64,000 nucleotides of DNA from a virus: the IMG/VR virus record IMGVR_UViG_3300009151_000001, positions 60,636 through 124,635 of that record; one strand, written 5' to 3'. The position numbers and the translations under genes were made by a program. This document shows positions 12,779 to 55,928 of this stretch, piece by piece (positions within the stretch are counted from its first letter, which is position 1; every line of letters starts with the position of its first letter). Below the pieces are notes generated by a model. The model did no database searches. It was given only the letters and a program-made list of their open reading frames with translations, and had not been told where the DNA came from.

Positions 12779-13141
12779 ATGCCCGCATCAACACCTTTAG
12801 CTGATAAAGTAAAAATATGGCTTTTCCCATCTCTAATGGGAATACTTGGTATGTTAATTTGGAATGATCTCCAAACAATTAAGACAAATCTAGCTAATGC
12901 ATTGATACAAACAACTACGGATAAAGCAAATATAGAGAATCTTAATAATCGAGTAAACAGATTGGAAAATTTTGTTTATAAAACATCACCTGTTCAAAAT
13001 ATTATTAGTGATTCTAATAAACAAAAACAAACCTCCGTACCAACATCTAATGATACACTACCTACTTTTCAAAAAATAGTAGCTATAAAACCCGATGAAA
13101 GGGATATAATAGCTAAAGTAATTCCTAAAAAAACTTTATAA
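12779..13141 (+). CDS. Small membrane protein with coiled coil, 120 aa
   Basis: One hydrophobic segment (WLFPSLMGILGMLIWNDL, residues 14-31), then a coiled coil (residues 32-65), then a Pro/Lys-rich tail. The layout resembles phage holin or spanin-like proteins and the gene is upstream of the lysis cassette. No sequence family recognised. Confidence 0.6.
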   Translation: MPASTPLADKVKIWLFPSLMGILGMLIWNDLQTIKTNLANALIQTTTDKANIENLNNRVNRLENFVYKTSPVQNIISDSNKQKQTSVPTSNDTLPTFQKIVAIKPDERDIIAKVIPKKTL

Positions 13142-13143
13142 CT

Positions 13144-13677
13144 ATGACCAGAGGATTATTTGAGTCAATTGATTGGCTTACAAAAAAAGTTAATATTTTT
13201 TTAGCATTAGTTCCATTTCCATCTTTCGGATCTTTTGAAGATTCTACTACACAATCAAATGCTGGTGTTACTTCTGTAAATATAGTTACATTTAGTGGTA
13301 CATCACAATCTAATGGTGTATATATTGTATCAAGTTCAAAAATAACTTACGCTAATTCTGGAAACTATCTTATTAATTTTCTTGGACAGTTTTTCTTTAG
13401 CGGTGGTGCATCAAACTATAACATTACTGTTTGGTTAAGAAAAAATGGAGTAGATTTATTAGACTCTTCTTATACATTTACTACTACAAGTGCTCAAGGT
13501 GCTCAAACATTAGCTAATTTAGAAGATATTATTACAGTAAAAGCTGGTGATTATATCGAAGTGTGTTGGTGGGCCGGTGCTTCAGGTATAACACTTAGTC
13601 CAACTACTGTTGGATCAAATCCAACAAGACCAGCATCACCAAGTGCTAATATAAATACTTGGAAACTAGGAAACTAA
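13144..13677 (+). CDS. C1q/TNF-like jelly-roll virion protein, 177 aa
   Basis: From residue 28 on it has the alternating beta pattern of a C1q-like jelly roll, with NIVTFSGTSQSNGVYIVS, a YLINFLGQFFFSG strand and VKAGDYIEVCWWAG near the end, ending NTWKLGN. Such trimeric domains form phage tail fibre tips or head decorations. Starts 2 bp after the previous stop. Confidence 0.6.
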   Translation: MTRGLFESIDWLTKKVNIFLALVPFPSFGSFEDSTTQSNAGVTSVNIVTFSGTSQSNGVYIVSSSKITYANSGNYLINFLGQFFFSGGASNYNITVWLRKNGVDLLDSSYTFTTTSAQGAQTLANLEDIITVKAGDYIEVCWWAGASGITLSPTTVGSNPTRPASPSANINTWKLGN

Positions 13678-17212: not shown

Positions 17213-20200
17213 TTAGAATGGGTACTCTACTTCAGCTACCTTTATAGCTTCTCCATTAGACATATCACTAGCTAATTCACCCATCATTTCGTCAAAAGAT
17301 TCTGTAGAATCTTTACGAGCTGGATGAGAAGATAAGATAAAATCAATAGCTGTTTCTATCTCGTTTACTTGTATTTCATCCATTATACCACGAGTAGTAT
17401 ATGCATTAATACCAGCTTCTATCTCAGCGATAGCCAACTCAAGTTGTTCTGTTGTAGTATAAGATGCTAACATTTCTACTTTGCTCATAATAGCTTTTAC
17501 TTCAGGAGACATCAATTTATTTTGAAGTTCTGAACCAGCTGATTGAGAAATCATAATTTGAGCTGTCTTTACAAGAGCTTTATCTACACTGATGTTCCAA
17601 ATAAAAGATATAGCTTTAGCTAATCCAGGAACAAAAGTTAAAGTTCTATCAGAACTGTGTTGATAACCAACTTCTAAATACTTTTCAAGTTTTTTAGTTG
17701 GTACATCTACTGTTGATATTTCTGTTTTATCAGGAACAGAAATCTTTATTTTCTCACGGTAGTTACGTGCACCCTTATCAAAATATTTAACTAATTCACC
17801 AGCAGATACACGGTTTACTGTCATTTTTAACATAAACCTATCCCAAAAAGGACTACCTACTTCTTCTTTTGGTATTTCATTACAAGTAGCTACAAATAGT
17901 TTCCATTTACAAGGAATCTTGTGTTTACCGTTAAATAAAAACTTCTCGTTCATTACACCCAACATTGCGTTACGGATAGCTGAAGAAGCTTTATCCACCT
18001 CATTAATCACTACTATTTCCGCGTCAGCAATAGGAGTGTTTAAGGTATACTGATTAGAAGTAAACAATTTACCCAGGTCCGGTCATTTTGTTATCCTAAG
18101 AACTCTTTATTTCTTAGATCTGTATCTTTTTTTAGATTATAAATGTTATCTTTTATTTATATAATCAAGAGTTTTTTCTAGAAAACCAGGTTTTTCAATA
18201 TGACCTAATGATACATTACAACCAATGCAAAGAACTCCTCGCACATGCTGATTTGTATGACAGTGGTCAATAACTGGTTTTAATTTATCTGTAAACTCTT
18301 TTTCACATAGACAACATTTGTTGTTTTGGTCTAATAATAATTTATGATAAGATTCTGGAGTTAATCCATATTTTTTAAGATTATAAATAAAACCATAGTT
18401 ACTTGTAAGCTTTTTAGACTTTTCTGTAGCTCTATGAATTAATTGTTTTTCTCTTAATTGCTTACCTTTACGTATATAATAAACAGCTTGATTTTCTTGA
18501 CGTTTGGTTGTGTTATTTTTTACCCATAAAGCGGTTTTTTCTTTAGCACATTCCTTACAATAAGAAGTAAGTTCATCTTTTGACTTATTATTCCTATTAA
18601 ATAAATCTAACTCTTTATTCATTTGACATCTTGCACATTTTTTCATAATGCAAATATACGAATTATTTTAGACTATACAACCATACAGTTCAGACTATAT
18701 CATCAATTATAAAATATTATTATAACTGTTCTGCGCTCGTGGTACTTTACTATCTTCACCATTACGTGGTCAGACTCCATGTACTAGTCGTTGAACCTTC
18801 TAATTATTTCTAATTAGCTTGGCTGCTGATTATCCATCTCTGGGTTTTCCAGCAATTCACAGAATTTAAAGGGGACTTCCGATACCTTTATTTTTAAACA
18901 TATTTCTACTTCACCACCATTACATAATAATACTACTTGTTTATTTAAGTACTTAACTAAAGAATTAGAGTCTGTAAATGTTGTTCCGTCAACTAATGTT
19001 ATTGTTTTTTTACCATCAATAGCATTAAGTTTACCTTTAAAAGATAAAGCTGATATTTTACTAGAATCACTTTTAAGTTTCCATTGTAATCCATATGCTG
19101 ATACTCTTTCTTTTCTTATACATTTACCTATTTGTTGTGTGCCACAAGAATTGTTTTTACCTAATTCTTTTAAAGCTAAACTCATAGAATCAAAAGTTTT
19201 TACATAATTACCATTTAAATCATAACACTCTACTGGTTTACTTTCATGATTATTTAATCCGGTTTTTTGTAAAAGCTTTTGACTATCTGACATCTTTTGT
19301 CTTACTTCATCATCAAAATAATATTCATTGTATATGTTAATCAAATTGTACGCAGGTTTTTCTTTTTCTATAAGATCATATTCAACTTTTCTTACATTTT
19401 CTAAAGTTTCATAACTAAGTATTTCTACTTTAAATGAGCTTTCACCATATTTATTATAACTATTTTGTAATTTAGAATTTCCATGAATATTTTTTCTAAG
19501 TTTACTATAATGTTGACAAATTCTATGGTATAAGTTGACTGATGAACCTATATAATAATCACCTGTTGTAATGTTTAAAATCTTATAAACACCTGATTTT
19601 TTGACGTTTTCTGTAGAAATAATGTTTTTCATATTAATAATGTAGTTTGTTTAACCTACACTATAATATACAACTTTTTTTAGTTAATCCCCTTAATTTC
19701 TGATGACTTAGTCCCTTCGTCAGTTTCTAAGATATAAATCTTGTTCGCAAAGTCTTCAGCGGTCATATTACCGTCTTTATTTAACCAAGCTTTAGCATAT
19801 TCTATTATTGTTTTTGTTTTAGCAACACCAGGATTACCCACTAACAAACAAGGAAGTCCTGTTGACTCAGCTAAAGCTAACATCTTAAATACTTCTTCTT
19901 TATTAATCAAAGAACTGTCAATAACTCTTACTTCTTTTGCTGTTACTTTACTGGTTGATTTACCTTTTCCTAAGCTTGTAGCCATTTTTCTTAAATTTTT
20001 TTGTTTAATAATTTTTTCAACATTGAGATTTCTCTCCACTAATTTAAATGATTCTTCTCTAATTACACCACTTGTAGCTCTATGATTTTTTTCTATATCT
20101 ACGTATAATTTGTCTTGATCTACTAAAGTGTAATTATATATTGGGTGGACTTGAAATACATCTTTAATAACAAAAAACTTTCCAACTAAACAAGGATTAC

Positions 20201-30481: not shown

Positions 30482-30527
30482 GGTAACAAAACAAAATCTG
30501 TGTGGAGGTAACCAGATTTTGTGTGGA

Positions 30528-30974
30528 GGTGGAGGTGAGGGGATTTGAACCCCTGTGTTAAGAAGAACGCCATAATACCAACGTCTCACATGTTTAGCTA
30601 CTCTGTTTCTCAGAAGCAGGAGATTAATCTGTGTTTTCACTGATTAGTAAAGGGCTGTACTGATTTAGGGTACAACATCCACCATCCTGATTTTTTAGCG
30701 TTGTACAGATAAACAACGGTAGTACTTTTAAAAGGTGTGTACTACTACCTTGAGTTTGTGACTTACTGTTCCACCCAAGTCACCAGAGGAAGAGTTACGC
30801 TGCTACAGCAACACGAGCGTTAGCGAACGCCATGTTAATGATTTTTGCACCGATAGCTTGATGATCAACTGTGTTGTCATTTATTGTTTTGTGTAACGAT
30901 TAAAGAGAATTAACACCATATCTCTACATGTGATACTATCCATTACATCTCAGTCGAATGCCAGTAACACCCCC
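30528..30974 (-). ncRNA. ssrA: Phage-encoded tmRNA (transfer-messenger RNA)
   Basis: About 447 nt. The 5' end GGGGGTGTTACTGGCATTCG has the tmRNA signature (TGG-x-TTCGAC follows). Acceptor GGGGGTG pairs with the 3' CACCTCC; the T arm is AGGGG-TTCAAAT-CCCCT. Helix P2 is supported by 5' ATAGTATC + CACATGT pairing with 3' ACATGTG and GGTATTAT. An internal frame after ATTAAC reads GCG TTC GCT ... GTA GCA GCG TAA, giving tag AFANARVAVAA at about 30830-30795. Downstream hairpins (GGTAGTA / TACTACC and others) would be the pseudoknots. tmRNA rescues stalled ribosomes and tags proteins for proteolysis. Confidence 0.85.
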
Positions 30975-30987
30975 GATAAATAAAAAG

Positions 30988-31103
30988 CCGGGATCTAAGG
31001 AATCGAACCTTAATCTAAGCCTTTGGAAAGACCACGTTCTCTCATATTTATTTGATCATGTAAAACATACCAAGTAAAATGATACCAATTAAACTACACC
31101 CCG
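30988..31103 (-). tRNA. tRNA-like gene, 116 nt, anticodon not assignable
   Basis: Acceptor CGGGGTG / GATCCCG (one mismatch), D-loop AATTGGTA and T arm TAAGG-TTCGATT-CCTTA are tRNA-like. But about 40 extra nt, able to form a hairpin (TTGGTATGT / ACATGATCAA), lie between the D loop and a second stem GGTCT-TTCCAA-AGGCT with a 6-nt loop. No standard 5-bp/7-nt anticodon arm is found. Confidence 0.55.
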
Positions 31104-31112
31104 ATAAAAAAG

Positions 31113-31210
31113 TGGAAGGAGGAGGACTCAAACCTCCCAGTAATACTTGTAAAATCATATGATTTGCGGTCTATACATTTTACAGGATCTTACTGATCCA
31201 TATTCCCCCC
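31113..31210 (-). tRNA. tRNA-like gene, 98 nt, possible Cys (GCA)
   Basis: Acceptor GGGGGGA / TCCTTCC pairs fully and the T arm is GGAGG-TTTGAGT-CCTCC. The anticodon region holds CCGCAAA (GCA, Cys) at the tip of a long arm extended by TGTAAAAT / ATTTTACA. The D loop lacks the GG pair. Extended arm makes identity uncertain. Confidence 0.55.
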
Positions 31211-31215
31211 ATGAG

Positions 31216-31299
31216 CAGTACACCTTGGATTCAAACCAAGAACCTCTCCTAAGCTTCGAAGCAAGTGGAGTGCCACTTTCTATTTGTAACTTGTGTACT
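31216..31299 (-). tRNA. tRNA-like gene, 84 nt, anticodon not assignable
   Basis: Acceptor AGTACAC / GTGTACT is perfect and the T arm CTTGG-TTTGAAT-CCAAG is canonical. The D loop lacks GG. The anticodon region is CTCC...GGAG enclosing about 17 nt with an inner palindrome GCTTCGAAGC, not a 7-nt loop. Confidence 0.55.
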
Positions 31300-31372
31300 T
31301 ATCTCTAAGTTTTTACGTACGATATTACTTAAAGTATTACAACTACCTTCCGATAGTTCTTTAAATTTAATG

Positions 31373-31444
31373 TTTGGGAGACAGGACTCGAACCTGTGAC
31401 CTACCTTAATTAAAAGATCGCATCTACCCCTGAGCTACTCCCAA
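31373..31444 (-). tRNA. tRNA-like gene, 72 nt, 6-nt anticodon loop
   Basis: Acceptor TTGGGAG / CTCCCAA and T arm ACAGG-TTCGAGT-CCTGT are perfect, with variable loop AGGTC. The D arm carries one extra base and the anticodon arm folds best as ATCTT-TTAATT-AAGGT, a 6-nt loop. Anticodon could be read as TAA, AAT or TTA depending on register. First gene of this RNA transcript. Confidence 0.6.
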
Positions 31445-35347: not shown

Positions 35348-35761
35348 CTAGACACTCCGTATCTCTGTTGATTCAGAGGCGGAATGAATATTTCTAATAT
35401 CTCTAAATAAACGAAGTTGTTCTCGTTTTAGTTCTACAAGATCTTGTGGTATATCTTTAAATGATAAATTTTCATCTTTAACAATTAGAGATTTAACATA
35501 ACGATCAGATAAGTTTTTAGTCATATTGTTTTGATATTGTCTTGACCAAATTTTAAATTTTTCTGTTTTATTATATTTTTTAGAATTTTTTCTATAAAGT
35601 TTTCTAAAATGTTCTCTATTGTTGTTTATATACAACTTATCACGTTCACTTTTTTTCTTATAACAAGTATAATAAGGTATTTTATTTTTATTTAAACGTG
35701 CAAACCATTTAGTATTACCACAATGAGAACACACTTTATCTGGAATATCTATCGTAGGCAT
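35348..35761 (-). CDS. Zinc-ribbon protein, 137 aa
   Basis: N-terminal KVCSHCGNTKWFARLNKN and YTCYKK form a ribbon like that of phage HNH proteins, but no HNH core follows; instead a Lys-rich helical tail ends LVELKREQLRLFRDIRN, a pattern common in Bacteroidetes phage proteins of unknown role. Confidence 0.6.
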   Translation of the reverse strand: MPTIDIPDKVCSHCGNTKWFARLNKNKIPYYTCYKKKSERDKLYINNNREHFRKLYRKNSKKYNKTEKFKIWSRQYQNNMTKNLSDRYVKSLIVKDENLSFKDIPQDLVELKREQLRLFRDIRNIHSASESTEIRSV

Positions 35762-36281: not shown

Positions 36282-36358
36282 ATTTTCTAATGTTAAATTG
36301 TTAAAAAAGAGGGGGAAGTAGACACAACCCCCGGTAACGATTGCTTGTTATGAAAAAG

Positions 36359-36440
36359 AATCTCTAGTAGGATTTGAACCTACGACCTTTAGTTTGTTGC
36401 TTTCGCCCACTAACACGCTACCGGACTGCGCCATAGAGAT
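36359..36440 (-). tRNA. tRNA-like gene with a 15-nt anticodon loop
   Basis: Acceptor ATCTCTA / TAGAGAT, D stem GCGC / GCGT with AGTCCGGTA loop, variable loop AGGTC and T arm GTAGG-TTCAAAT-CCTAC are canonical. The anticodon stem TTAGT / ACTAA is perfect but encloses 15 nt (GGGCGAAAGCAACAA) instead of 7, with an internal GC-GAAA-GC mini-hairpin and no T33. The body resembles tRNA-Pro-type D arms. Anticodon not assignable. Confidence 0.6.
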
Positions 36441-38153: not shown

Positions 38154-38184
38154 GTTTGAGAGTTTTAAAATGAAAGAATAAAAG

Positions 38185-38259
38185 CCGTTCTTATGGGAAT
38201 CGAACCCATACCTTCGTGGTTAACCGCCCCGATATTCAGACCAACTAAACCAAAGAACA
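38185..38259 (-). tRNA. tRNA, probable Asn (GTT), with G33
   Basis: 75 nt. Acceptor TGTTCTT / AAGAACG, D stem GTTT / GAAT, T arm ATGGG-TTCGATT-CCCAT. The anticodon arm is CGGGG-CGGTTAA-CCACG with one G-A mismatch and loop C-G-GTT-A-A; position 33 is G instead of the near-universal U. Asn is the best reading; function doubtful. Confidence 0.6.
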
Positions 38260-45959: not shown

Positions 45960-46054
45960 TGTTAGGTGGTGAAATTGGCAGACACGCTATCTTGTCTCGA
46001 TAGTGAGAATATATTATGTATATTCTTGTGGAGGTTCAAATCCTTCTCTAACAG
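45960..46054 (+). tRNA. Class II tRNA (Leu-like body) with anticodon GTC
   Basis: Acceptor TGTTAGG / TCTAACA, the Leu-type D arm GGTGAAATTGGCAGACACGC, a long variable arm (GAATATA...TATATTC) and T arm GGAGG-TTCAAAT-CCTTC. The anticodon arm CTATC-TTGTCTC-GATAG is perfect and gives anticodon GTC (Asp codons), with T instead of a purine at 37. Body and anticodon disagree. Confidence 0.7.
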
Positions 46055-46060
46055 CATTGT

Positions 46061-46198
46061 GGCTCACCTCTGTATATCAAGCAGTGAGTCTCCCCAGTAG
46101 GTTGCAAGTAATCTGGGATAAGTGTAAACCTAATAAGATACACCTAGAGATGTTCGACTGACTTCTCGTAAAACCTCATCTCTTGATGGGGTTTTTTT
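46061..46198 (+). ncRNA. Candidate structured small RNA ending in a terminator
   Basis: After the tRNA come three hairpins: GGCTCAC / GTGAGTC (46061-46090), CCCAG / CTGGG (46093-46117) and GTGTA / TACAC (46122-46143), then a rho-independent terminator AAAACCTCATC / GATGGGGTTTT with T-run (46170-46198). Probably co-transcribed with the tRNA. No ORF. Confidence 0.55.
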
Positions 46199-46239
46199 AT
46201 GTCACAAATTTGTATTACTTTTGTGACAAAATTATAATT

Positions 46240-46482
46240 ATGTTTAATGATGGTTATTCGTCTCCTAAAAAATCCACATATAGATTTTATTATATAGATA
46301 CATATATAGTTAATAATCAAAAATCTATACCCATTCGTATAAAAGATATAACAGTGTATGCAGATCATATGGGACTCGGAGCTGATGTTCATGAAGCTAA
46401 AAAAGAATTAATTAGAAGTTTAGATTTTGATGAAGCTCATTTTATATGTGTTAAAAGTGAATTATTAAATCGCGAGTTTTAA
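46240..46482 (+). CDS. Hypothetical protein, 80 aa
   Basis: Start at MFNDGYSSPKKSTYRFYYID; upstream in-frame codons lie in the terminator. A TACTTTTG -7 box at about 46214 precedes it. Helical C-terminal half (HEAKKELIRSLDFDEAHFI). Not recognised. Confidence 0.55.
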   Translation: MFNDGYSSPKKSTYRFYYIDTYIVNNQKSIPIRIKDITVYADHMGLGADVHEAKKELIRSLDFDEAHFICVKSELLNREF

Positions 46483-46488
46483 AAAAAA

Positions 46489-46520
46489 TTTGGTAGATAA
46501 AATATATATTCTTATATTTG
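46489..46520 (+). promoter_or_regulatory. Bacteroidetes-type promoter for the tRNA array
   Basis: TTTG at 46489-46492, 20 nt, TATATTTG at 46513-46520: an exact consensus match, ahead of the six-tRNA array. Confidence 0.8.
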
Positions 46521-46651
46521 TATTACAATGAAGAATAACAATACATATTATTTATCCCTTAGTTGGTTGTCATTAGTTGATGATCGGGGATAATATGTCT
46601 TATAAAAACTATATACATAGAAGCCTCAGAATTATCTGGGGCTTTTTATTT

Positions 46652-46733
46652 GCTTCTATGGCGGAATTGGTAGACGCGCTACACTTAGGATGTAGTGTTT
46701 TAAAACGTAAGAGTTCGAGTCTCTTTGGAAGTA
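46652..46733 (+). tRNA. tRNA-Leu (TAG)
   Basis: Class II. Acceptor GCTTCTA / TGGAAGT, anticodon arm CTACA-CTTAGGA-TGTAG (anticodon TAG), T arm AAGAG-TTCGAGT-CTCTT. Canonical. Confidence 0.92.
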
Positions 46734-46736
46734 CAT

Positions 46737-46817
46737 ACCGGTATGGTGAAATAGGTAGACACGAGAAGCTTAAGACTTCTTCCCGATGGGGTACAGGTTC
46801 GATCCCTGTTATCGGTA
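46737..46817 (+). tRNA. tRNA-Leu (TAA)
   Basis: Class II. Acceptor ACCGGTA / TATCGGT, anticodon arm AGAAG-CTTAAGA-CTTCT (TAA), T arm ACAGG-TTCGATC-CCTGT. Canonical; 3 bp after the previous tRNA. Confidence 0.92.
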
Positions 46818-46880
46818 CATGATGGATAATTCACTCATTAACTCCTGTAAAGAAGGTTAACGATGGATATATCCTACAAA

Positions 46881-46968
46881 AGGTGAGTTGGTAGAGTTGG
46901 TTTATTACACCGGTCTTGAAAACCGGAGGAGGTAACACTTCCGTGAGTTCGAATCTCACACTCACCTC
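46881..46968 (+). tRNA. tRNA-Ser (TGA)
   Basis: Class II. Acceptor AGGTGAG / CTCACCT, anticodon arm CCGGT-CTTGAAA-ACCGG (TGA), variable arm GGAGGTAACACTTCC, T arm GTGAG-TTCGAAT-CTCAC. Confidence 0.92.
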
Positions 46969-46982
46969 TTATAGAGAGTAAA

Positions 46983-47060
46983 GGAGAGAAATGGTATCCC
47001 CGGTTGTTTGCTAAACAACAACCCATTAGGTTGGGCACAGTTCGAGTCTGTTTCTCTCTG
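46983..47060 (+). tRNA. tRNA-Ser (GCT)
   Basis: Acceptor GGAGAGA / TCTCTCT, anticodon arm GTTGT-TTGCTAA-ACAAC (GCT), long variable arm ACCCATTAGGTTGGGC-type, T loop TTCGAGT. Confidence 0.9.
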
Positions 47061-47065
47061 CTTTT

Positions 47066-47151
47066 GGGAGTAAGGTGGATTTTGGTTTAGCCACCACGGT
47101 CTGTAAAACCGTAGCCTGTCAAAGGAGCTTGTTCGATTCAAGCTACTCCCA
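47066..47151 (+). tRNA. tRNA-Tyr (GTA)
   Basis: Acceptor GGGAGTA / TACTCCC, anticodon arm ACGGT-CTGTAAA-ACCGT (GTA), class II variable arm, T loop TTCGATT. Canonical. Confidence 0.92.
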
Positions 47152-47156
47152 CATAC

Positions 47157-47227
47157 GCGTGTATGGTGAAACGGTATCATGACGGTCTCCAAAACCGTTG
47201 GTCTAGGTTCGAATCCTAGTATACGTG
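47157..47227 (+). tRNA. tRNA-Trp (CCA)
   Basis: Acceptor GCGTGTA / TATACGT, anticodon arm ACGGT-CTCCAAA-ACCGT (CCA), T loop TTCGAAT. Class I body. Confidence 0.9.
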
Positions 47228-47263
47228 CAAATGTCAAGTATTATATTCAGTTTACTTGACAAA

Positions 47264-52467: not shown

Positions 52468-52668
52468 ATGAATGAGTTATATAATTGGTTATTCCACAAA
52501 GGACTTGATGGAAACTGGGCCGCCATCCCCAGAGATAAAGTGGCTGATTATTTTAATGATTATAATACTCCTGGTATTATACGGTCATCTCAACTTGAAA
52601 CAGTAACAGAATTAGCTGCCAAAGTGACATATGATCCTGATTATTTAAAAACAATAGAATGTTTATAG
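52468..52668 (+). CDS. Hypothetical protein, 66 aa
   Basis: MNELYNWLFHKGLDGNWAAI then PRDKVADYFNDYNTPGII. The pattern W-x-F-H-x-N-...-W-A-A-I-P-x-D is one I associate with small phage proteins near TerL. Overlaps TerL start by 10 bp. Confidence 0.55.
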   Translation: MNELYNWLFHKGLDGNWAAIPRDKVADYFNDYNTPGIIRSSQLETVTELAAKVTYDPDYLKTIECL

Positions 52669-55600
52669 AAATTCCTACATACCAAAACAAATCCTGGAGC
52701 TCTACTGTGTTTCATACACGGGAAGAGTTTCGGGATTTTCTTATTCCTTTATTTAAAGAACCTGGACAATACAAGTTTAATGATGTAACGTCTTCAATAT
52801 TTAATGAACAAGGACGTTTGTTTGAAAAATATGGATACTATTGTTTGGCTCCGTTAAAAACAAAAGACTTTATTAAATACTGGGATGATCAAAAAGCTAA
52901 ATGTAGAAATGGTATAATAGTGATAGATGGTGAAGATACATGGTATATCACTAGAGATTATTATATGTGGCTTAATTTTCTTCCTATATATGATAAAGAA
53001 GAAAAACGATTTGCTTTTGCTAAAATAAGAGATGCTCAATATCATATGGCTCTATATGAGATATTAGCGGAGCTTCATTATAAACACGCTGTTATTCTAA
53101 AGAAACGGCAGATAGCTAGTTCTTATTTTCATATGGCTAAGTTTATTAACCAGTGGTATTTTGAACAAGGTGCTGTATTAAAACTAGGAGCTAGTCTTAG
53201 AGATTATATTAATGAGAAAGGATCTTGGAAGTTTCTTAATGAATATAAAAACTTTTTAAACGAACATACCGCTTGGTATCGTCCAGCTGAACCAGATAAA
53301 GTGGGCGCGTGGCAACAACAGATTAAAGTGAGGATTAATGGACGTGATACTTATAAAGGATTGAAGGGTACAATAAATTTGTACTCTTTTGAAAAAGATC
53401 CTACAAATGGTGTCGGTGGTCCCGTTACTTATTTTTTTCATGAAGAAGCTGGTATTGCTCCTAAGATGAATGATACTTATGGGTTTATGAAACCCGCTCT
53501 TAAATCTGGTCATATAATCACTGGTCAGTTTATAGCTGCAGGATCTGTAGGTGATCTTGACCAATGTGGTCCATTAAAAGAATATATACTTAATCCAGAA
53601 GCTAATGGTTTTTACGGAGTAGAATCTAATCTAATAGACAAAGATGGAACCATTGGGATTATAGGATTGTTTATTCCGGAACAATGGAGTATGCCACCAT
53701 ATATAGATGAACATGGAAACTCTTTAGTAGAAGAAGCTTTAGAAGCTTTAGAAAAAGAATTTGAGAAAGCTAAAAGAGATTTGGAACCAGCTGCGTATCA
53801 ACTTACTGTTTCTCAACATCCGCGTACAATAGAAGAAGCTTTTGCTAGTAGAAAACTATCTGTGTTTCCTCCACATTTGATAGCTAAACAACAACAACGT
53901 ATATCTGAAAAGACTTATTCTGTAGAATATTTAGAACTATCTAGAGATTCAGAAGGAAAGATAGTAGATAAACAATCTAGAAAAACTCCTATTATGGAGT
54001 GGCCAGTTAGTAAAAATACAGTGGATAAAGAAGGAGTGATATGTATATATGAACGTCCTCATAAAGATCCATCTTTTGGAATGTATTACGCTTCTGTGGA
54101 TCCCGTGGCTGAAGGTAAAGCCGAATATATTAATAATATGTTATATACACCTACTGGTAAAAAAAGAATAGGTGATATAAAAATAGGAGATGCTGTTATG
54201 AATCCTGATGGAACATCTACACTAGTTACTGGTGTTTTTCCACAAGGACAAAAAGAATTGTATAGAGTATTTTTTAATGATGGATTTAGTATTTTAGTTT
54301 GTAAAGAACATTTATGGTCAGTATATGCAAGTGATAATGATAAAATTAATCCCCATGTATTATCAGTAGATCAATTATTAGATTTAGAAGGATCCGTTAA
54401 AAGTTTAGGAGTAGGAAAAAATAAAACTAAAATATACAATACTAAAACTTATTATAAAAAAGGTAATATATCTAAATGGAAAATACCCATTACTAATCCT
54501 TTAATATTTGATAAAAATGAAATACCATTAGATTCTTATTTTTTAGGATTACTATTAGGTGATGGAGGAATATCTACTAGAAGTATTCACTATACATCTG
54601 CTGATAAAGAATTAATTGATCATATAAAAACTGTACTACCATCAGATATATCTATTAAACAAACTGGTAAATATGATTATAGAATTTCAACATCTAAATC
54701 TCGTAATTCTATAATGGGTATTTTACGAAGTTTAAATTTACAAGGTACCAAATCACAAACTAAATTTATACCAGAGATCTATAAGTATTCATCTATAGAT
54801 AATCGACTTGCTTTATTACAAGGATTAATGGATACTGATGGTTATTGTGGAAATCATGGAGCTGAATATTATTCTATTTCTTTTAATTTAGCTAATGATG
54901 TTGTAGATTTAGTTCATAGTTTGGGTGGTATAGCTAGAATAAGAAAAAAAATTACAAATAAAAAAAAGAAAAATGGGGTAGGTTATATTTACATAGTTAG
55001 AGTAAGTCTTCCTAAAATGTTTAATCCATTTAGATTAAAAAGAAAATCAAATTTATATAAACCTTCAAATAAGTTTTCACGATATATTTCAGATATAAAA
55101 TTTGAAAAGATTGATGAAGCTATTTGTATTAGTGTAGAAAATCCTAATAATCTATATATTACTGAACATGGTATTGTAACACACAATACCACTACGTCAG
55201 ATTCTTTATGTTCTATATACGTTTATAAGAATCCGCGGATGTTAATAAAAGATGATGGATCAGGAAAGATTGAAAGCTCATATGAGCGTGATGGTATAGT
55301 AGCTTCATGGTGTGGAAGATTTGATGATCTTAATAAAACACATGAACGTTTAGAACTTCTTATAGAATGGTATAACGCGTGGACTGTTGTAGAAAATAAC
55401 GTAGCTTTATTTATACAATATATGATATCTAAAAAGAAACAAAGACATCTTGTTCCTAAAAGTATGATATTGTTTCTAAAAGATATAGGAGCTAACTCAA
55501 ATGTGTTTCAAGAATATGGTTGGAAGAATGTAGGTACATTATTTAAAGGAACTATATTATCGTATGCTATAGAGTTTTTAAAAGAAGAAATTGATACAGA

Positions 55601-55928
55601 AACATTAGCTGATGGAACTATAGTAAAAACTATATATGGAGTGGAGCGTATTCCAGATCCTATGCTTCTTAAAGAGATGCAAGGATACCAAGATGGAGTA
55701 AATGTCGACAGATTGGTTGCGTTTGCGGCTCTTATAGCTTTTGCTAAAGTACAGCAATCTAACAGAGGTATGGCTCGTGATATAGAATATACAAAAAGTA
55801 ATTTGGACAACTCTAAAAAATTCAGTAGATTTAATATGAGTAATAGTCCTTTTAGACACATGGGAAACACTCGTGGCGGAGGATCAATGAGTTCTCCAAG
55901 AAGAAGTGCTTTTAAAAATATTAGATAA
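52659..55928 (+). CDS. Terminase large subunit (TerL) with an in-frame intein
   Basis: 1,089 aa precursor; 733 aa after splicing. The ATPase half has a Walker A-like VILKKRQIASS (146-155) and Walker B TYFFHEEAG (257-265). The nuclease domain starts at YASVDPVAEGK with D481. The intein (residues 488-843) is inserted seven residues after this catalytic Asp; the extein resumes TTTSDSLCSIYVYKN. TerL docks on the portal (encoded 240 bp downstream), pumps DNA and cuts concatemers. Unspliced protein should be inactive, so splicing gates packaging. Confidence 0.93.
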   Translation: MFIEIPTYQNKSWSSTVFHTREEFRDFLIPLFKEPGQYKFNDVTSSIFNEQGRLFEKYGYYCLAPLKTKDFIKYWDDQKAKCRNGIIVIDGEDTWYITRDYYMWLNFLPIYDKEEKRFAFAKIRDAQYHMALYEILAELHYKHAVILKKRQIASSYFHMAKFINQWYFEQGAVLKLGASLRDYINEKGSWKFLNEYKNFLNEHTAWYRPAEPDKVGAWQQQIKVRINGRDTYKGLKGTINLYSFEKDPTNGVGGPVTYFFHEEAGIAPKMNDTYGFMKPALKSGHIITGQFIAAGSVGDLDQCGPLKEYILNPEANGFYGVESNLIDKDGTIGIIGLFIPEQWSMPPYIDEHGNSLVEEALEALEKEFEKAKRDLEPAAYQLTVSQHPRTIEEAFASRKLSVFPPHLIAKQQQRISEKTYSVEYLELSRDSEGKIVDKQSRKTPIMEWPVSKNTVDKEGVICIYERPHKDPSFGMYYASVDPVAEGKAEYINNMLYTPTGKKRIGDIKIGDAVMNPDGTSTLVTGVFPQGQKELYRVFFNDGFSILVCKEHLWSVYASDNDKINPHVLSVDQLLDLEGSVKSLGVGKNKTKIYNTKTYYKKGNISKWKIPITNPLIFDKNEIPLDSYFLGLLLGDGGISTRSIHYTSADKELIDHIKTVLPSDISIKQTGKYDYRISTSKSRNSIMGILRSLNLQGTKSQTKFIPEIYKYSSIDNRLALLQGLMDTDGYCGNHGAEYYSISFNLANDVVDLVHSLGGIARIRKKITNKKKKNGVGYIYIVRVSLPKMFNPFRLKRKSNLYKPSNKFSRYISDIKFEKIDEAICISVENPNNLYITEHGIVTHNTTTSDSLCSIYVYKNPRMLIKDDGSGKIESSYERDGIVASWCGRFDDLNKTHERLELLIEWYNAWTVVENNVALFIQYMISKKKQRHLVPKSMILFLKDIGANSNVFQEYGWKNVGTLFKGTILSYAIEFLKEEIDTETLADGTIVKTIYGVERIPDPMLLKEMQGYQDGVNVDRLVAFAALIAFAKVQQSNRGMARDIEYTKSNLDNSKKFSRFNMSNSPFRHMGNTRGGGSMSSPRRSAFKNIR
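54120..55187 (+). other. Class 3-type intein with LAGLIDADG endonuclease in TerL
   Basis: 356 aa. It begins AEYINNMLYTPTGKK: position 1 is Ala, not Cys/Ser. Block B has VCKEHLW (W553), block F has AICISVENP (C823), and the junction is GIVTHN followed by Thr844. Ala1 with the Trp-Cys-Thr set is the mark of class 3 inteins, which start splicing from the block F Cys. The endonuclease motifs are LGLLLGDGG (629-637) and LLQGLMDTDG (719-728), both with their Asp. Confidence 0.87.

Follow-up and report, generated by a model that had tools for sequence, protein, structure and literature searches.

tRNA-framed genes without a normal decoding arm beside the tmRNA gene of a crAss-like phage, and a phage-borne family of units with exchangeable payloads

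Aberrant tRNA-like genes beside the tmRNA gene

The window analysed here comprises 64,000 nucleotides (bases 60636-124635) of the virus record IMGVR_UViG_3300009151_000001 (124,635 bp) and harbors, next to a gene for transfer-messenger RNA (tmRNA), a cluster of four transfer RNA (tRNA)-like genes, here designated A to D, which are, as read from their sequences, without a normal decoding arm. Genes were called in the window with ARAGORN and with the Rfam models RF00005 (tRNA) and RF00023 (tmRNA), and a custom scanner was furthermore employed, which requires an acceptor stem, a T arm and C74 and gave no matches in 733 kb of shuffled control sequence. The following features make up the cluster:

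31373-31444, minus strand: gene A, tRNA-like; acceptor TTGGGAG/CTCCCAA, D arm with GG, 6-nt loop TTAATT instead of an anticodon loop
31216-31299, minus strand: gene B, tRNA-like; acceptor AGTACAC/GTGTACT, T loop TTTGAAT, D loop without GG
31113-31210, minus strand: gene C, tRNA-like; acceptor GGGGGGA/TCCTTCC, T loop TTTGAGT, D stem GGATC/GATCC, D loop without GG
30988-31103, minus strand: gene D, tRNA-like; acceptor CGGGGTG/GATCCCG (one G-G mismatch), T arm TAAGG/CCTTA
30528-30974, minus strand: tmRNA (ARAGORN and Rfam RF00023), tag DHQAIGAKIINMAFANARVAVAA

The original prediction for this cluster, namely that four minus-strand genes combine good acceptor and T arms with an abnormal anticodon region, is borne out by ARAGORN, Rfam, the scanner and a reading of the sequence. 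Gene B contains an extended arm, CTCC-ACTTGCTTCGAAGCTTA-GGAG, with 17 nt between its strands, gene C an 8-bp extended arm (TGTAAAAT/ATTTTACA) closing a large loop, and in gene D a ~70-nt insert with two hairpins takes the place of the 3′ strand of the D arm and of the anticodon arm. The expectation that such RNAs could not decode normally likewise held, the region between the D and T arms offering no usable anticodon arm: in none of the four genes can it give a 5-bp stem and a 7-nt loop with U33. The standard models assign no normal anticodon to any of them. ARAGORN calls gene A alone (31372-31444, minus strand), as 'tRNA-???' with the 2-nt anticodon 'aa', while RF00005 scores gene A at 39.1 bits and gene D below its cut-off (26.8 bits; E-value: 1.1e-4; G000:91623-91738). 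Genes B and C are called by neither program, though their acceptor and T arms are fully paired, and the scanner recovers genes A (31373-31444) and B (31216-31299). The four genes have four distinct acceptors, with A or G as N73. A search of the window with RF00023 gave a match at 30527-30974 only and none at the neighbouring tRNA-like genes.

Comparison with a near-identical phage

Phage L009 (IMGVR_UViG_3300032329_000471) shares 95-98% DNA identity with the window over most of the region. The odd arms that an orthologue comparison was proposed to examine are almost unchanged there in genes B (100% identity), C (97%) and D (96%), whereas the middle of gene A is replaced wholesale, the segment that extends from the D loop through the anticodon stem being swapped from GGTAGATGCGATCTTTTAATTAAGG in the window to GGTAGAGCAGCCCCTGCAGAAGGGG in L009 between flanks that are ~97% identical. 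A comparable change is observed in the tmRNA (L009 positions 13108-13552), in which the 5′ acceptor strand, the T arm and the 3′ acceptor strand are replaced jointly and the body is almost identical. The replaced ends lie ~400 nt apart, and their pairing is kept (GGGGGTG/CACCTCC in the window, GGGGCAT/ATGCTCC in L009).

These replacements bear on the suggestion, also made in the original prediction, that the genes are decaying, being once-functional phage tRNAs which shed the anticodon arm under relaxed selection. The low scores of the window genes in the tRNA models, the variety of their defects and the better-formed gene A of L009 (61.4 bits versus 39.1 bits) are in keeping with decay. Random decay is nevertheless unfit for gene A and the tmRNA, because the replacement is wholesale between near-identical flanks and the tmRNA pairing is kept.

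A family of tRNA-framed units in crAss-like and T4-like phages

The window phage is crAss-like by its proteins, its terminase, portal and capsid giving PHROGs matches and its capsid protein sharing 23-29% identity with those of csAssE-Sib and Leptolyngbya phage Lbo-JY46. Phages related to it at 80-97% capsid identity were screened for tRNA and tmRNA genes and the matches then read, and several crAss-like relatives proved to contain tRNA-like genes with long non-anticodon middles, hereafter payloads, set in one common frame: the acceptor AGTCAGG/CCTGACT, the D arm GGCGGAATTGGTAGACGC and the T arm CAGGTTCGAATCCTG. Relatives at 81-91% capsid identity bear this AGTCAGG frame or payloads of its family; those close to the window phage include L132-L134, L137 and L365, the last from a phage whose capsid protein is 81% identical.

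Two scans of IMG/VR for the AGTCAGG frame, with at least 120 stretches each, together with loci added later bring the family to at least 318 distinct units in at least 238 loci, with at least 202 unrelated payload groups, including at least 156 singletons; these counts, drawn from fragmentary and in part redundant IMG/VR contigs, are lower bounds. The family is found in T4-like phages (Gp23 in 22/39 contigs) as well as crAss-like phages, its units sitting amid canonical tRNAs and on a single strand in 37 of the 38 contigs with matches. Among bacterial and archaeal genomes, units were matched in five contigs only, all metagenome-assembled and three labelled Bacteroidota (L360-L364; Bacteroidetes, Saprospiraceae, Chitinophagaceae, Helicobacteraceae and Rickettsiaceae), and these may be phage contigs. 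The cultured phages in INPHARED include no clear family member, a family member used as query giving short tRNA matches only, and no DNA match to the window cluster. Rfam reports tRNA and tmRNA and no other family in six unit-rich loci.

Sequence conservation across 219 listed units covers positions 1-13, G18G19, U48, N73 (A) and both the acceptor and the T arm; the information content falls to ~0 bits at positions 26-47, and the middle ranges from 23 to 83 nt. The units are 70-140 nt long and without a recognised tag frame, and C74 is present in 98% of the family. A strict canonical anticodon arm can be drawn in 2/219 listed units and a loose one in 17/219, compared to 8 in shuffles. The possibility that such genes encode cleavage-resistant tRNAs which still decode, as had been proposed for the window cluster, is unsupported because the decoding arm is absent. 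Default ARAGORN is blank on 160/219 listed units and gives scattered anticodons to the remainder; among the units of L144-L330 these spurious assignments include Pyl CTA and, with introns allowed, SeC TCA and Stop TTA, a possible origin of false suppressor-tRNA claims in phages.

The same data speak to whether the genes could yield functional, decoding tRNAs once a splicing endonuclease and a ligase have excised a small intron from the anticodon region. ARAGORN does fit an 8-nt intron in the window gene at 36359-36440. The AGTCAGG family, however, has no flanking anticodon-stem halves, as the counts of strict and loose arms indicate, its payloads do not reach the length of group I introns, and Rfam detects no intron family in the six unit-rich loci, which makes introns a highly improbable explanation. 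ARAGORN run with introns allowed restored no canonical arm.

Structural conservation of the payloads

The payload regions fold slightly better than shuffled sequences (mean z: -0.67). When one representative unit per payload group is counted (202 listed groups), H-type pseudoknots with the last strand beside the T stem are enriched (score 18.3 versus 15.5 in shuffles; Wilcoxon p: 4e-8). Among 69 strong cases, 28 place the end of this strand exactly 2 nt short of the T stem, compared to ~13% in shuffles. In an alignment of 24 units with one payload, 10/26 pairs have changed on both sides, where 1.5 are expected and 0/500 shuffles match this. These two-sided changes lie in the acceptor, the T stem and stem 2 of the pseudoknot, and sliding the partners against each other lowers pairing from 99% to at most 44.5%. 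A second payload, from at least 49 contigs, has two crossing helices and one compensated pair. Judged by these patterns of change, the AGTCAGG frame and many of its payloads are under structural selection. Two payloads recur almost unchanged, one in L281, L368, L371 and others (at least 45 viral contigs) and the other in L263, L285, L320 and others (at least 49).

Decay should strike all arms, whereas the acceptor and T stems are kept via compensatory changes. Payloads are at least 95% conserved over dozens of contigs or replaced wholesale with no intermediates, and C74 is retained in 7/7 aberrant tRNA-type genes of the window, for which chance is ~3e-6 at the 16% C of its base composition; the canonical window tRNAs also have C74. 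Random decay is thus not borne out, and we consider it improbable.

Exchange of payloads between phages

Near-identical units frequently occur in unrelated surroundings, with 90 of 108 such pairs with readable flanks showing unrelated flanks on both sides. Conversely, in 110 pairs for which both flanks could be aligned, 54 have flanks that are 84-100% identical around unrelated payloads (34-52% identity), the remaining 56 share the same payload (95-100%), and zero pairs are of intermediate identity. These pairs are not independent, because few slots supply many of them. One payload is furthermore found on several frames, for example AGTCAGG, AGTGAGG (with compensating CCTCACT), AGTGGTA and TTTAGGG. 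On these alignments, payloads are swapped whole between phages, and the AGTCAGG family illustrates RNA genes moving as whole cassettes among unrelated phages.

Such mobility could also point to a mobile or recombination element, either an integron-like folded site or a tRNA-derived retroelement, to which the middle would be incidental. Boundaries that fall exactly at the tRNA ends, near-identical units within unrelated flanks, exchange at slots and the single strand in 37/38 contigs all agree with this. A tyrosine recombinase (PF00589) was, however, matched in 1/36 contigs, in a degenerate form with stops, and a reverse transcriptase in 0/36, the payloads are conserved and structured, and no clean empty sites are seen among 327 units, the 13 junction-spanning matches being mostly alignments to another unit. 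A mobile element is for these reasons unlikely, and an attC-type integron site was rejected for want of an intact encoded tyrosine recombinase. One weak candidate empty site is found between L237 and L345 (74%). GIY-YIG endonucleases are encoded in 19/36 contigs; enzymes of this type rearrange phage tRNA loci (PMC13096335), and they act on the DNA around such genes with no need of the units themselves.

Proposed function of the tRNA-framed units

We favour, and hold to be fairly probable, the explanation that these genes specify non-decoding, tRNA-framed effector RNAs, the payload cassettes of which are exchanged, plausibly in an arms race with host defences. The retained frame would supply the parts needed by tRNA-maturing enzymes and for the elbow, comprising the acceptor stem, the T arm, usually the 5′ D arm with GG, and C74, while the anticodon and variable region would be swapped for another folded RNA, which in the AGTCAGG family is typically an H-type pseudoknot. 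Through the frame, host RNase P, the CCA-adding enzyme and 3′ processing presumably mature the transcript into a compact RNA that resists nucleases and presents the payload. Exchange would probably proceed by recombination via the constant frame, perhaps aided by GIY-YIG homing endonucleases. The payloads most likely bind and block host factors, for example defence proteins that target RNA or tRNA; this role would account for the large number of different payloads and their rapid replacement. The swapping of whole payloads at fixed slots, together with strong payload conservation, suits an arms race over drift, and a defence target is therefore the first choice. Transcription, processing, binding and the anti-defence role are what we infer for the units from their sequences. 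A more far-reaching version, in which phages share an exchangeable pool of hundreds of evolved pseudoknot payloads on a constant processable frame, serving as inhibitors or aptamers against host or rival proteins, is put forward tentatively as a possibility short of an even chance.

By analogy, the window cluster would belong to the same functional class as the AGTCAGG family despite its other frames, the common principle being a kept frame, a replaced decoding arm and wholesale replacement, as in gene A and the tmRNA ends. Non-translational roles, such as the decoy or regulator functions raised in the original prediction, are suggested as the best readings remaining for the tRNA-like genes; it did not foresee how large the class is, nor the pseudoknot payloads or their exchange as cassettes. 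Several observations weigh against effector RNAs of this kind, particularly in the window. Gene A of L009 looks like an almost normal tRNA with G33, such that the window phage may have lost tRNA function there. In the loci examined, genes B, C and D have orthologues only in the near-identical L009, and no window gene carries the acceptor AGTCAGG. Genes B and C have lost both elbow partners, G18G19 and C56, together, so the elbow is not retained in them. When the window genes were individually compared to shuffles, no pseudoknot was significant, the best being that of gene C (P = 0.08). The analysis turned up no direct link to a defence system.

The constancy of the acceptor, C74 and N73 (A) in the AGTCAGG family would alternatively fit acceptor substrates, which would still be aminoacylated, with A73 and the acceptor stem providing identity, and would serve as sinks for amino acids or EF-Tu or as non-ribosomal donors. 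Many conserved, structured payloads and their exchange would be left unexplained, and the four cluster genes differ in acceptor and have A or G as N73, and acceptor substrates are thus very unlikely.

Comparison with known systems

The usual view of phage tRNA genes is that they assist translation, and a large non-decoding class would alter the annotation of phage 'tRNAs', since current tools miss most units or give them spurious anticodons. In engineered tRNA scaffolds, a foreign RNA fold replaces the anticodon arm for stability and processing; these are laboratory constructs, of which the effector RNAs proposed here would be a natural counterpart. The tRNA-like domain of tmRNA (RF00023) similarly combines a tRNA acceptor and T arm with a reduced D arm and no anticodon arm, with pseudoknots elsewhere in the molecule. 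It differs in its long body with a tag reading frame, where the units measure 70-140 nt and their payloads, unrelated to one another, number in the hundreds.

Phage tRNAs with anticodon-loop mutations evade anticodon nucleases (PMC10264068) and are likewise phage-encoded with an anticodon region unlike that of the host, but their changes are point changes and decoding is kept, whereas the units lack the arm or have a different fold in its place. The ToxI RNA of type III toxin-antitoxin systems is a short H-type pseudoknot that inhibits a phage-defence nuclease (PMC8860590, PMC5772629). It resembles the units in this fold and differs in being a tandem repeat adjoining a toxin gene, without a tRNA frame, the units being single and tRNA-framed. 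No Rfam antitoxin family was matched in the six unit-rich loci, in which neighbouring toxin genes were not searched for. RNA anti-CRISPRs (Racrs) are, like the units, solitary small RNAs in viral genomes, and they block host defence (PMC10651486); as described, they mimic CRISPR repeats, and they differ from the units in having no tRNA frame. T4-type tRNA clusters with the SegB homing endonuclease (PMC13096335) resemble the AGTCAGG family in their tRNA-rich loci and, on the reading proposed here, in GIY-YIG rearrangement and use against defences, but in these clusters intact tRNAs are amplified, whereas in the AGTCAGG family non-decoding units are exchanged.

The open-access literature in PubMed Central yielded no description of anticodon-less tRNA-like phage RNAs, pseudoknot tRNAs or natural tRNA scaffolds, and the AGTCAGG family and its class of phage RNA are apparently undescribed so far. 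That hundreds of uncultured phages carry tRNA-shaped genes with the codon-reading arm replaced points to an unrecognised non-decoding phage RNA. One frame with ~200 unrelated payloads constitutes a natural experiment, the function being testable by swapping frames and payloads, and the units may form a reservoir of natural RNA inhibitors.

Other tRNA-type genes and neighbouring features of the window

Further tRNA-type genes are distributed over the window as follows:

36359-36440, minus strand: tRNA-like; 15-nt loop GGGCGAAAGCAACAA, without U33; ARAGORN 'Arg gcg' (36358-36440) with the 8-nt 'intron'
38185-38259, minus strand: tRNA-like; ARAGORN 'Asn gtt' (38184-38259); 7-nt loop CGGTTAA with G33, G.A mismatch in the anticodon stem
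45960-46054, plus strand: Leu-like gene; loop TTGTCTC (GUC, U37), long variable arm, acceptor TGTTAGG
46652-47228, plus strand: canonical tRNAs Leu(UAG), Leu(UAA), Ser(UGA), Tyr(GUA) and Trp(CCA); ordinary anticodon arms, internal control

Inspection confirmed that the genes at 36359-36440 and 38185-38259 share the defect of the cluster, the former through its 15-nt loop and the latter through G33. ARAGORN calls six plus-strand tRNAs across 45960-47228, and Rfam agrees with its tRNA and tmRNA calls. The view of this array as mostly canonical stands for five of the six and fails for the gene at 45960-46054, which has a Leu-like body with GUC and U37. The acceptor TGTTAGG and the D arm of this gene are similar to those of the AGTCAGG family, and its type occurs in eight viral loci (L131, 3511-3629; L402-L409), with constant D and anticodon arms and changing acceptor, T and variable arms.

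The window phage resembles L188 (5724-6218), a unit-rich T4-like phage with a tmRNA and >20 canonical tRNAs as well, in that its tmRNA lies amid odd and canonical tRNAs. A GIY-YIG endonuclease gene is located at 18814-19632 of the window, and near the gene at 36359-36440 an open reading frame (35348-35761) resembles, as judged by eye, a zinc-finger/HNH homing endonuclease. The gene at 52659-55928 encodes a terminase large subunit with a ~360-aa intein-like insert (PHROG matches at residues 485-860).
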